Part shown: piece after piece, positions 1 through 5,889 of the stretch
How positions within the stretch are numbered: the stretch's first letter is position 1
How the letters are laid out: every line of letters begins with the position of its first letter
From: Bacillota bacterium
GTDB lineage: Bacteria > Bacillota > Proteinivoracia > UBA4975 > VEMY01
Direction of reading: 5' to 3'
DNA length: 64,000 nt
Assembly (NCBI GenBank): GCA_009711825.1
Contig: VEMY01000009.1
Span: forward strand, 78,283-142,282
Notes under the pieces: generated by a model
Database searches by the model: none
Seen by the model: only the letters and a program-made list of their open reading frames with translations
What the model was told of the DNA's origin: nothing
Made by a program: the position numbers and the translations under genes

Positions 1-93
1 ATCCTGCGTAAGGCCTTCCCAATCTATAGGATCCGGGCCAATAAGTTCGCGCTCGACAAAACTAAGCAATTGATTACGTCTGTTATCACTCAC
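1..93 (-). CDS. DrmA-like DISARM helicase, N-terminal 31 codons only
   Basis: Seen: a GTG start at 93 preceded by AAAGGAGG seven bases upstream, overlapping the stop of the NERD helicase gene by eight bases. The frame stays open to the window edge and gives a peptide beginning MSDNRRNQLLSFVERELIGP. Known: DISARM DrmA helicases begin with a short helix followed by a D/ELxGPD motif. Inference: the position downstream of a DrmE-like gene and a cytosine methyltransferase, together with the ELIGPD motif, suggests drmA. The helicase domain itself lies outside the window, so the call rests on 31 residues and on context. Confidence 0.55.
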   Translation of the reverse strand, partial: MSDNRRNQLLSFVERELIGPDPIDWEGLTQD

Positions 94-1828
94 GAAAAAG
101 CCTCCTTTGTAATAAGGTCAGATACTCTTTGGAAGCTGGCTTAGACTGCATAATGTACAACCCGGATCTCGCCCTGCTCAACCCAACGTACATTAGCTTA
201 TCCATGCTAAAGTCCTCGATATCAGTCAAAATAACCACGGTATTCTCCAAGCCTTTATAGGCCTGGATGGTACAAAAAGTAATGCTGTTATTCTCTTTGA
301 TACTGAAGTCCCTGATGTCAAATCTGTTAAGAAGAGAGACAACCGAATTCTCCCTTCTGTGTGGGGAGAGGATAGTAATACGCCCGGGCTCAATGCTCAT
401 ATCTGTCAGTTGATTTAGCAAATCAGCTAACTTATCCCGCTGGTCTTCAGAAGAGGTATAAGTGATATAGTCAACTGGGGGGCCATCCACCTTTGTCCAC
501 AATCCGGTAGGAGCTTCAAAACCGGTTACTGTTTGGATTTCTTCACAAATCGGCTTTGTGTTCCTACAATTAAGAGTCAGCCTAAAGCGGCTAAAAGAAG
601 TATAGTCTTCCAAGAGTTCCTTCATTTTCGCACCAGATTGTCCATTTGCGTAAATAGCCTGCATGGAAAAGTCACCAAACATGGTCCAGTGCCCCCGTAC
701 TATGCCTTTTCGCAGGCAAGCATTAATGACACTCAGATAGTCGACACAAATCAGATCCTGAGCCTCATCAATAACAATCTTATCAAAATGCTCTTCAGCT
801 TTGCACAGAGCTTTCAGTGTAGCACGAGGCAGATCCTTTTGATAGAATTCCTGTACTCCAACCTTTCCTTGAGGAGTTTGTAGGCTGACACCACGCTCTT
901 TGACAGTCTGGATCATAAATTTATGTAATGTCCCTACGTACTTTGGGCGCAAGGTTTCCGGCATATCATCGAAATAGCTTTTCAGCCATTCAGCAAGATT
1001 CGAGTTAAAGCAGAACAGCGCTGTTTGCTCACCCTTTGCAGCGGATTTCTTGACTTCCTCAACAGCCAGAAGAGTTTTCCCTGTTCCCGCCGGCCCATGA
1101 ATCAGGCAACGGGGATTATCGTCAAGCTGATCCAGACAACGGTACTGCTCTTTTGTAAGAGTAACTAATGCTTCGTCCGCAGTGCGAAGCTGAGCAATCA
1201 TGGAAATAGCATAATCAAAGTCCCCTCTAAGAAGTGATGCTAGATAACGAACGTCTTCAGCTGTTGGAAGCCTTGATTCATCAAAGTTGCCATATACACT
1301 TTCCCATTTCCGGCGCGCTCCATCTGCCAACCGTTCAATAAAACTCTTTACATGATTCGCGTCACGGGAATCAAAGACTTGCCATTGTTCTTCATCTATG
1401 CCTGCTGCTTCATATTCTATATCCGGGAACATGACGCCAAAGCCAAAAAACACATTTGAGAGATAACGATGGTCGCTATTGAGCCGCTTTTTCAGGGCAG
1501 ACACAATACTGAAGACACCATCTTTTGCCTGGTCAAACGGGCCGCGCACCTTTGAGTTCGTCTCTCCATACTTATTGGTAAAAAGCCATATCCCGTTTTC
1601 ACGTCTTACTCGGCCACCTTTGACCTCAAGAGCGAACAGTCCCATCCGAGGGACTAGAATGAAAAAATCAATTTCCCCGTAGATGACTTTGTTGTGCGTA
1701 GAGATTCCCAATGAGTGCAGGACAATCCAATTATCGGTCTGAGGTGAATTCTGAAACCATTTAAATACCCGACGTTCTGCAGAACTTTTTACTTCCGGAG
1801 AGATTACCGAAGGAATCATTATAGCCAT
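86..1828 (-). CDS. NERD-domain superfamily 1 DNA helicase
   Basis: A 580-residue protein with an N-terminal nuclease-related NERD domain (about residues 10-130, with EIDFFILVPRMGLFALEVKGG carrying the E-D...ExK pattern) followed by a UvrD/PcrA-like helicase core. Visible motifs are Walker A GPAGTGKT, Walker B VIDEAQD and a C-terminal VGLSRARSGL (motif VI). The start is placed at ATG 1828 because an AGGAGG lies six bases upstream; an upstream TTG in frame at 1849 would overlap drmE and lacks a site. It is ten bases from the drmE stop and overlaps the drmA-like start, so it is translated as part of the defence operon. NERD helicases are not among the five canonical class 2 DISARM genes. Inference: an accessory nuclease/helicase of this DISARM locus. 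Confidence 0.85.
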   Translation of the reverse strand: MAIMIPSVISPEVKSSAERRVFKWFQNSPQTDNWIVLHSLGISTHNKVIYGEIDFFILVPRMGLFALEVKGGRVRRENGIWLFTNKYGETNSKVRGPFDQAKDGVFSIVSALKKRLNSDHRYLSNVFFGFGVMFPDIEYEAAGIDEEQWQVFDSRDANHVKSFIERLADGARRKWESVYGNFDESRLPTAEDVRYLASLLRGDFDYAISMIAQLRTADEALVTLTKEQYRCLDQLDDNPRCLIHGPAGTGKTLLAVEEVKKSAAKGEQTALFCFNSNLAEWLKSYFDDMPETLRPKYVGTLHKFMIQTVKERGVSLQTPQGKVGVQEFYQKDLPRATLKALCKAEEHFDKIVIDEAQDLICVDYLSVINACLRKGIVRGHWTMFGDFSMQAIYANGQSGAKMKELLEDYTSFSRFRLTLNCRNTKPICEEIQTVTGFEAPTGLWTKVDGPPVDYITYTSSEDQRDKLADLLNQLTDMSIEPGRITILSPHRRENSVVSLLNRFDIRDFSIKENNSITFCTIQAYKGLENTVVILTDIEDFSMDKLMYVGLSRARSGLYIMQSKPASKEYLTLLQRRLFRE

Positions 1829-1838
1829 ATTCTGCCTC

Positions 1839-4424
1839 CTATTCTTCAATCAAGCGGTTGGTATCAGAGACTCCAACGACAATCGGCGAACCTACATCAA
1901 TAATCTTTAGAACCTTGACCAGTCCAATTCCCTCGATGGCCATCTCAATCGGCTCCCAAATATTAGATGGGTTAATCTCTCCATATTTTTCTAGGGCTTC
2001 CACAATCCTGCTTCGCAACAGCATAGATAGGGCTCGCCCGGCCTGTACATGTGCAGATCTAACTTCCCTTGCAGCATCAAATATCTGATCTATAAGTCCG
2101 TTTATCACGCTGTTTTCTGTTATAGCAGCTATGTGCTGGAGATCCTGCTTTTGTTGCGGCGCAATGACGTCTTCATCCATCAGCCAACCGCGTACCGTCG
2201 GGTATTCTTTCGTACATCCGGCATCCACAAGCTTCTGGTAAATCTCTTCTGGCGTCGATGACTGCTGCTCAATCTCAAGTGCTTCTTTCCATTTTGTTGC
2301 TAGCTCTCGAAGTCCGGGCTTTCCACTATTGGACAGCATAATATCAGCCATTTCTTTGATGAGGTCGCGATCCGCCTCTCGAACTACAACAAAATCTCCG
2401 ACACGAAGTTTATCCGGTAAAATAGAATCAATTTTTTCTGCATCCTGCATGATAACTCCTGTTGCAGAAATAACCTTGTGCCCTGTCTTGTAGAATGCCA
2501 GAAACCCGCCCACATAGTTTACAGGTATCACCTCAGCTGTTCCCTCCATGGATTTCATACCGCTGTTGGCGGCATATTGCCTGAACTTGTTTTCACGTAA
2601 AACGAGCTCAATTTCACTGAGTTCATCGATTTCGGTAGGCTCTACGGACTTTGGGTTGTAACTTGCCACAAAACGACGGGTGGAAATACTAACCTGATCA
2701 TTGCTGAAAGAGCGGGTAATTATTGCTTTATTGTCGGAGCTTTTTAACGCTGTATTCCATTTAGCCATCCCATAACTTTTCCAACGGTATTCATAGTCAT
2801 ACAGCAGGACAATGTATCGTGGCGTGTTGAAACTGTACAAAATCTTCCTCATAATCGCACGTTTTAGCCATCCGACGACAACTGTTGCTGAAAATGCTGT
2901 ACAGCTTGCAGAATAATATTCTGCAGGGTGTAGCACATGGACCATGGTGTGCAAATCATTCTGGCTGCACAATTCCTGCCAATAACTCCGAACGTGCTCT
3001 TTTTCGGACCTTTCCGGCACAACGATGCAAACATCTTTATAGTTTTCAACCTGCAGATGATCCGATAAAGCCTCCTGTTTAAGAAGACGGTAATCGGGAG
3101 AATATATTTTTTTCAAACAGGTGATGGCTTCCTTGTAGTCCTCATATGTCCCGGGTGCCAGAAATGGCTTTTCGGATGTTAACGTCTGAAGAGAGTCGTC
3201 AAGTAGAAGACCTGCTCTTTCGATCTCACTACTCTCAAATGGGATAGTCTCCCGAAGTGCAGCAAAGGCAAGCGCATTCAAGCTGTCGATTATTCGCATC
3301 AACTGAGCAGACTGTCCTTTTGATTCGTTTCTGCGGGAGGCAAGTCTGCGGATTGCATCACTTATTTCAGGCCCGTCAACTTCCAGATACTCAACCTGTC
3401 GAGTCGAGCAGTTTCTAATTTTTCGATCCATGGGCAGAGGGGAGACATCGTACAACTTCGGCGTAATACTCGTTTCGTCCCATCTCCAAATATTGAATCC
3501 CCGCATTTCAAAAGGCTGCAAATCGAAAGAGTTCACAACATCGGTGACACAGGTAATAGGAACGTTCACCCGCATCAAATCATCCAATGCATCTACCTGC
3601 GTCACAATGCTATTCGAATCAGACGCATCAATAATAATCGACTGGACAGGATGTTCATTTTCAGAAGCTGCTACAATAGAATACATATCAGGAGCCAATA
3701 CGATTGAAGGGATACCAGCCATCTGGCCCGCCCCAACATTTTGGATGGAACCGTTGTAATCAACCTGCCCAATGAGGAGAAGATCGTTGATCTTTTTTCC
3801 GCCAAGGCGGCAGCCAGCAAACGTCTCTTTCGCACGGATAATTGAAGTCATATTGAAGATGGAGCTGTTCATATGAGTCCTGTAGTCGGCGAGGTCATCC
3901 AGTAGTTGTCTATTAGGTGAAACATGCGTAATCTGACTCTCTACTTTTCCCTTGGCTGCAACAAATCGCTTATACTTGCTTAATCTGCGCTGTGTACTTG
4001 TGCGTTGAAAAAGCGGAAAAAACTCGATGGGCGCACTGCTAATCAAATCAGCGAGTCGTATTTTTAGACAAGTCTTCCCATCACGTTCTTCAAGACCAAG
4101 AAATTCCACCACCGCATTGCCCAACTTCAATTTTTCCCCAGATTGGAAATTGGAAAGACCATACGTCTTTTCAATTTTGCCTTGGGCAATATTATGCAGC
4201 AGTTTCATTAGGGTAAAAATAAAGATTGACTGCACTCTTTCCGGGAAAACCATTATGTTGTATTGCCCTTGATGTTGAATCATTTTATCAAGCATCAGGA
4301 TGCTTGATTTTATAATTGGAGGAACACCGGTGATTTTTGGATCCCCGTCAAATGACAAGCTGATGCCATCAAATGCGCTCTCCCTTAGCAGCAATTGCTC
4401 CACATACTCATGCCATTCAAGCAT
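1839..4424 (-). CDS. drmE: DrmE-like DISARM protein, 861 aa
   Basis: A large 861-residue protein with no motif I can name with certainty. The start is ATG 4424, preceded by AGGAGG seven bases upstream. A C-terminal stretch, KLRVGDFVVVREADRDLI (about residues 690-710), looks like a small beta-barrel or control segment. The middle carries mixed alpha/beta sequence without Walker motifs. Known: class 2 DISARM consists of a C5-cytosine methylase (DrmMII), DrmA helicase, DrmB (DUF1998), DrmC (phospholipase D) and DrmE, a large protein of unknown fold. Inference: the size, the location next to a C5 methylase and the DrmA-like start downstream make DrmE the best match. A profile search would settle it. 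It could also be an unrelated large defence protein. Confidence 0.6.
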   Translation of the reverse strand: MLEWHEYVEQLLLRESAFDGISLSFDGDPKITGVPPIIKSSILMLDKMIQHQGQYNIMVFPERVQSIFIFTLMKLLHNIAQGKIEKTYGLSNFQSGEKLKLGNAVVEFLGLEERDGKTCLKIRLADLISSAPIEFFPLFQRTSTQRRLSKYKRFVAAKGKVESQITHVSPNRQLLDDLADYRTHMNSSIFNMTSIIRAKETFAGCRLGGKKINDLLLIGQVDYNGSIQNVGAGQMAGIPSIVLAPDMYSIVAASENEHPVQSIIIDASDSNSIVTQVDALDDLMRVNVPITCVTDVVNSFDLQPFEMRGFNIWRWDETSITPKLYDVSPLPMDRKIRNCSTRQVEYLEVDGPEISDAIRRLASRRNESKGQSAQLMRIIDSLNALAFAALRETIPFESSEIERAGLLLDDSLQTLTSEKPFLAPGTYEDYKEAITCLKKIYSPDYRLLKQEALSDHLQVENYKDVCIVVPERSEKEHVRSYWQELCSQNDLHTMVHVLHPAEYYSASCTAFSATVVVGWLKRAIMRKILYSFNTPRYIVLLYDYEYRWKSYGMAKWNTALKSSDNKAIITRSFSNDQVSISTRRFVASYNPKSVEPTEIDELSEIELVLRENKFRQYAANSGMKSMEGTAEVIPVNYVGGFLAFYKTGHKVISATGVIMQDAEKIDSILPDKLRVGDFVVVREADRDLIKEMADIMLSNSGKPGLRELATKWKEALEIEQQSSTPEEIYQKLVDAGCTKEYPTVRGWLMDEDVIAPQQKQDLQHIAAITENSVINGLIDQIFDAAREVRSAHVQAGRALSMLLRSRIVEALEKYGEINPSNIWEPIEMAIEGIGLVKVLKIIDVGSPIVVGVSDTNRLIEE

Positions 4425-4435
4425 TGGTATCCCTC

Positions 4436-4585
4436 CTAAATTTTCAGCACCTGATTTGATTGCTTGTAACTCGGACGCTGGTATACTGATGCCTTTACAC
4501 GATCTTCAATCCGCCCTAAAAAGTGAAAGCTTTTAACAAACCGATCTTGTAGTAGGTCAAAGCCCCAAAGGGCAGCGTAGGAACT
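4436..4585 (-). other. 49-codon open frame, probable 3' gene remnant
   Basis: Between the methyltransferase stop and drmE the minus strand holds a 49-codon open stretch without a clear start. It ends with a TAG overlapping the drmE ribosome site. The translation contains ALWGFDLLQDRFVKSFHFLG and RIEDRVKASVYQRPSYKQSN, which has normal amino-acid composition and reads like the C-terminus of a real protein. I do not recognise it. It may be the tail of a gene whose 5' part was replaced when the methyltransferase moved in, or an unannotated small protein with a non-standard start. Confidence 0.3.
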
Positions 4586-4611
4586 TCAATGAATCAACAG
4601 GAGACTTATGT

Positions 4612-5889
4612 CTAGACATTTCTGTCTGCCTTGCAGAGTTGCTTATATATCTCTTCAGCTATAACCTTTGCCATCAATGGAGGTACTGCATTTCCTACTT
4701 GAACGAACTGAGCTGTGCGGGAGCCTTCAAAAAAATAATTGTCAGGAAAAGACTGTATTCTTGCAGCTTCACGAACTGTAATGGAACGATGCTGGTGGAT
4801 ATCCGGATGAATAAAGTAATGTCCGTCCTTAGATAGATGGGCCAGAATAGTGTGGCAACTATCCAGATCACCACCCACGACCTTATACCTGTCCGTGAAA
4901 GAGGTCCTATTACGGTGTGTTTTTAGTTCATCTGGTAGCTGGTTATAGTTTAATCGTTGACGACGATCTTCCCAAAGTTCAATAGCCCTTTTATAGATCA
5001 TAATGTCACGTTCAATGTGTGGTCGACTTTGATGAAGAGTCAATACATCGTCTGGAGTTCTTATAGCATTGTCTCGAATATAATTACTGTATCGGGTAGT
5101 TCGGTAATGTTTCCTCTCCTGACCAGGAGTCATTTTTGGGAGGTCTTGTAACAAGTCGTACACAGTTCCATTAATCTCAACGGACTTAAACTTGGGATAG
5201 TGTAAACCGCTCCCACGCCTCCATCCGATAATAATCATTCTGCGTCGATTTTGCATTACCCCAAAGTCACGTGCGTTTTGCTCGTGGCATTGAATGTCAT
5301 ATCCAACCCGCTTGAGTTCAAATTGAAGGCTCGTCCATGTCCGCCCACCGTTAGCACTTTCAATGCCCATGACATTTTCAAAAACAAACATGGTTGGCTT
5401 ATACCGTTCTAAAAAGCGGGAGTACAATAAATACAGGTTGTTTCTTGGATCCTGCTCCATAGGTGTTTCCATACGGCTACTTTGAGCCCTTCCCACTAGA
5501 GAGTATGCTTGGCATGGGGGGCCACCGACAATAACATCAACTTGAGTAGAATCATTTTCATCAAGGATCCCATCAATTCTGTTAAAAATATCCTTCATCG
5601 TACGCTCTGATATCTCAACGCACATGACAGCCTTTAGTACATTCTCGGGTATATGGTCCAAAAACTCCACCCGTGTCATATAACCGCGTAGGTAATCATA
5701 ATAAACATTCAGATTACCTTTGTTCTTCAAGTAATAATAACAACTTCTTGTTTCAAGTGTTCTGCATGCTATGGCATTCATTTCAATGTGTGCAATCGGA
5801 TTGAATCCGGACTGAATAAATCCTTCAGAGAGACCTCCGGCCCCCGCAAACAAATCAATGAAGCATAGTTTTGCATTCTTTACAAACAT
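4612..5889 (-). CDS. drmMII: DNA cytosine-C5 methyltransferase (DrmMII-like)
   Basis: A 425-residue C5-cytosine methyltransferase with its motifs in order: motif I FIDLFAGAGGLSEGF, motif IV GGPPCQAYS with the catalytic Cys, motif VI FVFENV, motif VIII QNRRRMIIIG, motif IX around REAARIQSFPD and motif X QVGNAVPPLMA. The start is set at ATG 5889 (AGGGGA site upstream) rather than a TTG 63 bases earlier. It would modify host DNA so that the defence system can tell self from phage. It leads the operon with the DrmE-like, NERD helicase and DrmA-like genes. A stand-alone restriction-modification methylase is the alternative, but no restriction endonuclease is seen next to it. Confidence 0.85.
   Translation of the reverse strand: MFVKNAKLCFIDLFAGAGGLSEGFIQSGFNPIAHIEMNAIACRTLETRSCYYYLKNKGNLNVYYDYLRGYMTRVEFLDHIPENVLKAVMCVEISERTMKDIFNRIDGILDENDSTQVDVIVGGPPCQAYSLVGRAQSSRMETPMEQDPRNNLYLLYSRFLERYKPTMFVFENVMGIESANGGRTWTSLQFELKRVGYDIQCHEQNARDFGVMQNRRRMIIIGWRRGSGLHYPKFKSVEINGTVYDLLQDLPKMTPGQERKHYRTTRYSNYIRDNAIRTPDDVLTLHQSRPHIERDIMIYKRAIELWEDRRQRLNYNQLPDELKTHRNRTSFTDRYKVVGGDLDSCHTILAHLSKDGHYFIHPDIHQHRSITVREAARIQSFPDNYFFEGSRTAQFVQVGNAVPPLMAKVIAEEIYKQLCKADRNV

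Follow-up and report, generated by a model that had tools for sequence, protein, structure and literature searches.

A class 2-like DISARM locus in a Bacillota genome with a NERD nuclease-helicase between drmE and drmA and without drmC

The analysed stretch of DNA (the window, 64,000 nucleotides, G000:C9:78283-142282) opens within a minus-strand operon, in which a gene for a NERD-type nuclease fused to a helicase lies between a drmE-like gene and the start of drmA. Is this a class 2 DISARM operon that has picked up a foreign gene, or a distinct form of DISARM in which the helicase belongs to the system? A sequence-only reading proposed a class 2 locus with an inserted helicase, possibly a new subtype. 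Its gene positions and spacings proved exact, and the gene order 5' to 3', including the part of the operon left of the window, is as follows:

4612..5889, minus strand: drmMII, C5-cytosine DNA methyltransferase, 425 aa, first gene of the operon (ATG at 5889; PADLOC, Pfam, PPCQ motif)
1839..4424, minus strand: drmE-family gene, 861 aa (NCBIfam NF038316; Pfam DrmE_C)
86..1828, minus strand: NERD (PD-(D/E)xK-type) nuclease fused to an SF1 helicase, 580 aa (PADLOC, invariant residues, SF1 fold)
1..93, minus strand: drmA, first 31 codons, the rest lying left of the window
G000:C9:74944-78375, minus strand: drmA, complete, 1143 aa (ORF; PADLOC DrmA)
C9:73103-74941, minus strand: drmB, 612 aa (ORF; PADLOC DrmB; NF038324)

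The methylase and drmE-family genes are separated by 187 bp, the drmE-family gene and the helicase gene by exactly 10 bp, and the helicase gene overlaps drmA, which starts at window position 93, by exactly 8 bp. The helicase start at ATG 1828 (580 aa) is backed by relatives; an upstream TTG at 1849 would give 587 aa. According to the open reading frames left of the window, drmB directly follows drmA and is succeeded by a convergent pair of genes for a PLD-helicase and a HIT protein. Scans for tRNAs, promoters and terminators gave nothing informative. The PLD-helicase/HIT pair flanks the DISARM operon in both the window genome (L002:4205-6991, equal to G000:C9:70204-72990) and its closest relative (L010:1580-4320), with the orientation of the operon relative to the pair inverted between the two. 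Over 9.7 kb the operons of these genomes share about 90% identity, the pairs only 68%, which suggests separate transfer.

The DISARM character of the operon follows from the matches of its core proteins. The methylase matched PADLOC DrmMII (9.4e-166, 550 bits) and Pfam PF00145 and carries the PPCQ catalytic motif. The gene cut by the window edge is drmA, as predicted: its product matched PADLOC DrmA with 731 bits and the solved DrmA structure (PDB 7s9v) at 7e-136, and its NF038325 score of 929.6 is slightly below the cut-off of 950. The DUF1998 protein encoded next to it is DrmB (NF038324 DrmB_fam, 454 bits vs a cut-off of 240; PADLOC DrmB, 229 bits). The class 2 features of a YprA-like DrmA helicase core, an adjoining drmB and a DrmMII C5-cytosine methylase are thus all present; of the two genes expected to follow drmA, drmB was found and drmC was not. 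The operon consists of drmMII, drmE, the NERD helicase, drmA and drmB only, and the class 1 proteins DrmD and DrmMI are missing from it.

The 861-residue protein also proved to be a DrmE, in the sense of a broad family: it matched NCBIfam NF038316 DrmE_fam over residues 34-859 (450.9 bits vs a cut-off of 80) and Pfam DrmE_C (36.7 bits, above the gathering cut-off of 27). Profile searches with the canonical DISARM_DrmE equivalog NF038323 and with PADLOC DrmE gave no match to it, and none of 300 genomes of the phylum had a protein above the NF038323 cut-off. The relatives L012 and L033 scored high with the broad model and low with the canonical one, indicating that the two DrmE groups are homologous but distinct. 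An L. plantarum plasmid locus (L073) considered as a canonical class 2 comparison was dropped, as its 801-aa protein matched no DrmE model. Because both canonical DrmE models were unmatched and drmC is absent, the locus is not a canonical class 2 system, and the class 2 label holds only as a likeness in gene set.

The predicted DrmE structure (mean pLDDT 84.8) recovered SF2 helicases in a fold search (MDA5, LGP2, RIG-I, Hef and FANCM, E about 1e-6) with a low whole-chain TM of about 0.24, which differently arranged RecA-like domains would explain. A motif search found neither Walker A nor DExH motifs in the window protein, and no GxGKT or DExH-type motif in any of 25 DrmE relatives. With moderate confidence, DrmE may therefore be a catalytically dead SF2-like helicase scaffold. 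Profile-profile comparison against alignments of SF2 and SF1 helicases returned nothing significant, so that this idea draws on the fold comparison and the missing motifs only. In an Actinomycetota/Chloroflexota-rich branch (L045, L047-L052, L054-L056, L058, L060-L062, L064, L066, L067) DrmE is split into two adjoining genes of about 330 and 510 aa, and hhalign places the first at the N-terminus of DrmE (P 1.5e-5, probability 80). In a Paenibacillus locus (L030:1486-8259) a block of opposite-strand ORFs interrupts drmE and leaves it in pieces, as an insertion element would.

How often NERD helicases sit between drmE and drmA was surveyed by scanning genome contigs with DrmA alone, without reference to the helicase. 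This gave 54 loci, four of which begin inside drmA and were left out. In 47 of the 50 informative loci the gene directly 5' of drmA encodes the helicase (46 aligned over at least 400 residues, one cut by a contig end). The exceptions are L033, with only a 66-aa C-terminal helicase remnant, and L055 and L065, with no helicase; two further apparent exceptions, L039 and L046, were rejected when tblastn recovered the full helicase. At 47 of 50 loci found without reference to the helicase, the arrangement is far beyond chance. Since the search patterns were built from the window DrmA, the sample represents that DrmA clade. By their record titles the surveyed loci span about a dozen phyla, among them Bacillota, Bacteroidota, Actinomycetota, Chloroflexota, several proteobacterial lineages, Nitrospirae, Acidobacteria-type soil bacteria, Gemmatimonadota, Verrucomicrobia and two candidate-phylum groups, and as one layout recurs across them, this is a real DISARM subtype and not a one-genome oddity. 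The junctions are tight, 43 of 46 between drmE and the helicase falling within -62 to +21 bp and 47 of 49 between the helicase and drmA within -77 to +30 bp; these figures use longest-ORF starts, which makes the overlaps maximum values, and include two near-duplicate loci. In one 57-row clade of the DrmA tree (SH-aLRT 99) the helicase is usually present, its absences being scattered, and L012, outside this clade, also carries it. A more distant sample of DrmE-family loci included L085, L087 and L088, in which drmA directly follows drmE; L055, L065, L013, L071 and L072 are further DrmE-family loci without the helicase.

The tight spacing had suggested that the helicase is part of the operon, and its evolutionary history agrees. 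A quick, unrooted tree of 73 NERD helicases has a branch (SH-aLRT 95) that sets the 47 from drmE-helicase-drmA loci apart from all others, and the six best helicase matches among 300 genomes searched all adjoin drmA, drmB or drmE. The pairwise divergence of the helicase correlates with that of DrmA (r 0.957), DrmB (0.952) and DrmE (0.954) as it does between DrmA and DrmE (0.955), while the methylase follows more loosely (r 0.76-0.77). Its tie to the core is hence as close as that of DrmE and closer than that of the methylase, which supports the helicase as an integral, conserved part of the operon.

The helicase protein combines PD-(D/E)xK-type residues and SF1 motifs in one chain, as in the NERD-helicase family. 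Its best PADLOC match was the DRT-associated RTasNERD-Hel (2.8e-44, residues 8-572), followed by NERD+UvrD (1.9e-22); the Pfam NERD model failed to match the window copy, yet matched 21 of 36 orthologues. In alignments of 37 and 36 orthologues with identities down to 28%, E25, D61, E75, K77, Q107, K258, D361, E362 and R559 (587-aa numbering) are invariant. The first five constitute a complete PD-(D/E)xK-type set (E-D-ExK-Q), and the invariant helicase positions comprise the Walker A lysine and threonine, the DE-Q-D box and R559. The AlphaFold2 model (mean pLDDT 88) has an SF1 helicase fold, with Schlafen, Upf1, RecD2, UvrD and Dna2 among its fold-search matches. Taken with the invariant residues, this fold suggests that the predicted nuclease and helicase activities are probably both live. 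Among the patterns scanned over viral contigs, the helicase alignment gave weak partial matches. The window genome encodes a second, distant NERD helicase with 30% identity outside any DISARM locus (G000:C39:51927-53510; L121, L136).

Canonical class 2 (type II) DISARM comprises drmA, drmB, drmC, drmE and drmMII, and the present operon shares with it DrmA, DrmB, DrmMII and a DrmE-family protein, but differs in the NERD/SF1 helicase between drmE and drmA, in the lack of drmC, and in a DrmE of the broad family instead of the canonical equivalog. No drmC occurs in the operon or after drmB. A DrmC hidden elsewhere in the genome was rejected, as the NF038319 search gave sub-threshold matches only and the PLDc_2 search only PLD proteins of about 500 aa elsewhere and the neighbouring PLD-helicase. 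Among the helicase-bearing loci, phmmer with DrmC, an HKD-motif search of all ORFs and Pfam PLDc_2 (48 source genomes or records; matches compared with the locus coordinates by eye, among the matches listed) found no PLD gene of DrmC size, while DrmC was recovered in two positive controls, the class 1 locus L095 and the helicase-less DrmE-family locus L088 (PADLOC DrmC 2.7e-17). The absence of DrmC from helicase-bearing loci is therefore well supported, if not absolute. The idea of a new subtype is borne out by its recurrence, but the helicase appears to take the place of DrmC instead of being added to a full five-gene set. As most DrmE-family loci without the helicase also lack DrmC, the replacement or mutual exclusion may be less than strict.

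Other known systems resemble the operon in part. It shares the DrmA-DrmB pair with class 1 (type I) DISARM (drmD, drmMI, drmA, drmB, drmC), but lacks DrmD, DrmMI and DrmC; in the class 1 control L095 all three are present, with no NERD helicase between the upstream gene and drmA. A helicase of the YprA family together with a NERD-type nuclease is also found in TALON, an ARMADA-like single-gene YprA protein with TPR-CSD and TBP genes (PMC12458937), whereas our operon has neither of the latter genes and encodes DrmA and DrmB separately. Nhi and the DRT-associated NERD helicases likewise unite a nuclease and an SF1 helicase in one protein, but stand alone or accompany a reverse transcriptase, while the present protein has its fixed place within a DrmA/DrmB operon. 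GajB of Gabija is also an SF1 (UvrD-like) helicase serving a nuclease, with weak PADLOC profile similarity; it has no NERD domain, and the Gabija nuclease is the separate GajA.

On balance, we favour reading the locus as an anti-phage system of the DISARM type, in a distinct, class 2-like subtype without drmC whose built-in nuclease is the NERD helicase. According to published work, DrmAB is stimulated by, or depends on, unmodified 5'-overhang DNA, its ATPase activity falls with methylation, and DISARM can do without DrmC, which is often missing (PMC9142583). In the proposed mechanism, DrmMII would place 5mC on the host genome as a self mark, and DrmA and DrmB, a split YprA-family helicase, would load on unmodified single-stranded or 5'-overhang phage DNA and translocate. 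The NERD helicase would be brought to the DrmAB-bound DNA, perhaps via DrmE as a catalytically dead helicase-like scaffold, and would unwind and cut phage DNA, the role assigned to DrmC in other DISARMs. The formation of a physical complex, and cleavage as a killing rather than an end-processing step, are the least certain parts of this scheme. The helicase-less DrmE-family loci, the Pfam NERD model unmatched by the window copy, and a dead-helicase reading of DrmE taken from a low-TM fold comparison unconfirmed by sequence profiles count against it. A bolder version, in which a NERD/SF1 effector replacing DrmC, a dead SF2-like DrmE and DrmAB would form a distinct class acting as one 5mC-gated DNA-end-processing machine with RecBCD/AddAB-like logic, is put forward tentatively.

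Other explanations assign the helicase a lesser part. It could be an end-processing or ATP-sensing helper of DrmAB, with killing by a DrmAB replication block or a host nuclease and the NERD domain auxiliary; one proposal is that DrmAB itself obstructs phage DNA or brings in further nucleases (PMC9142583). GajB-type SF1 helicases likewise assist a separate nuclease, yet the PD-(D/E)xK-type residues are invariant in every aligned orthologue, which argues for a needed cleavage activity and makes the helper role unlikely. Still less probable is a stand-alone role, in which the helicase, like Nhi or other single-gene nuclease-helicases, would act on its own and be carried along with DISARM in a defence island. 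In favour of it, many genomes encode NERD helicases away from DISARM, the second copy here (G000:C39) among them, and the helicase has weak PADLOC similarity to Nhi (3e-8). Its fixed, overlapping position between drmE and drmA, its single clade and a co-divergence as tight as that of DrmA with DrmE are unlike a freely moving island gene. Least credible is a canonical class 2 system with a recent local insertion in this lineage: the order drmMII, drmE, drmA, drmB is class 2-like, but the DrmE fails the canonical models, drmC is lacking, and the arrangement common to 47 of 50 loci from about a dozen phyla contradicts it. The drmA-anchored survey thus led us to reject an insertion in one genome; of the sequence-only reading, the position of the helicase stands, as the rule in a multi-phylum clade.

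Several related loci carry further genes. A protein of about 680 aa of the AIPR (abortive infection phage resistance) type is encoded just before drmE, usually after drmMII, in 15 relatives (L016-L021, L023-L026, L028, L029, L034, L036, L043; e.g. L017:3583-5640); the window locus and L015, its closest relative, lack it. A 339-aa protein of no known family, whose C-terminal part resembles the C-terminus of PLD-helicase-type proteins, follows drmB in L016:15268-16287, L020:15265-16284 and L026:15206-16255, and in shorter form in L018 and L028. In L049:16406-17233 an HhH-GPD DNA glycosylase gene lies directly after drmB-methylase, and L053:8152-8982 is an ORF of the same size and place. A second arrangement, UvrD helicase - drmA - drmB - NERD helicase, occurs in L127 (G080:C159) and L093 (Rhizobium plasmid); in L127 an Hsp70-like protein and two unknown proteins precede the UvrD helicase, with no methylase seen in the stretch, and L128 holds only drmB-NERD helicase before the contig end. 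A hybrid-looking DISARM locus on a Tsukamurella plasmid (L096, 3783-18940) encodes, in order, a cytosine methylase, a weakly GTP diphosphokinase (RelA/SpoT)-like protein, a UvrD helicase, DrmA, DrmB, a DEAD/DEAH helicase and a restriction-type methylase.

The drmMII-drmE-NERD helicase-drmA-drmB layout is apparently an undescribed DISARM subtype, as we found no description of it in the open-access literature searched in full text, and a survey of the YprA family mentions NERD for TALON only (PMC12458937). The PADLOC type II definition comprises A, B, C, E and MII and does not include the helicase (PMC9252829). With the PADLOC DrmE model unmatched and DrmC absent, it would miss this subtype, and DISARM is probably undercounted. 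How phage DNA is broken down by DISARM is an open question, with no nuclease known in DrmAB (PMC9142583). With a NERD helicase that is genetically fixed, intact in its catalytic residues and unaccompanied by DrmC, the subtype offers a direct candidate for the missing DISARM nuclease.
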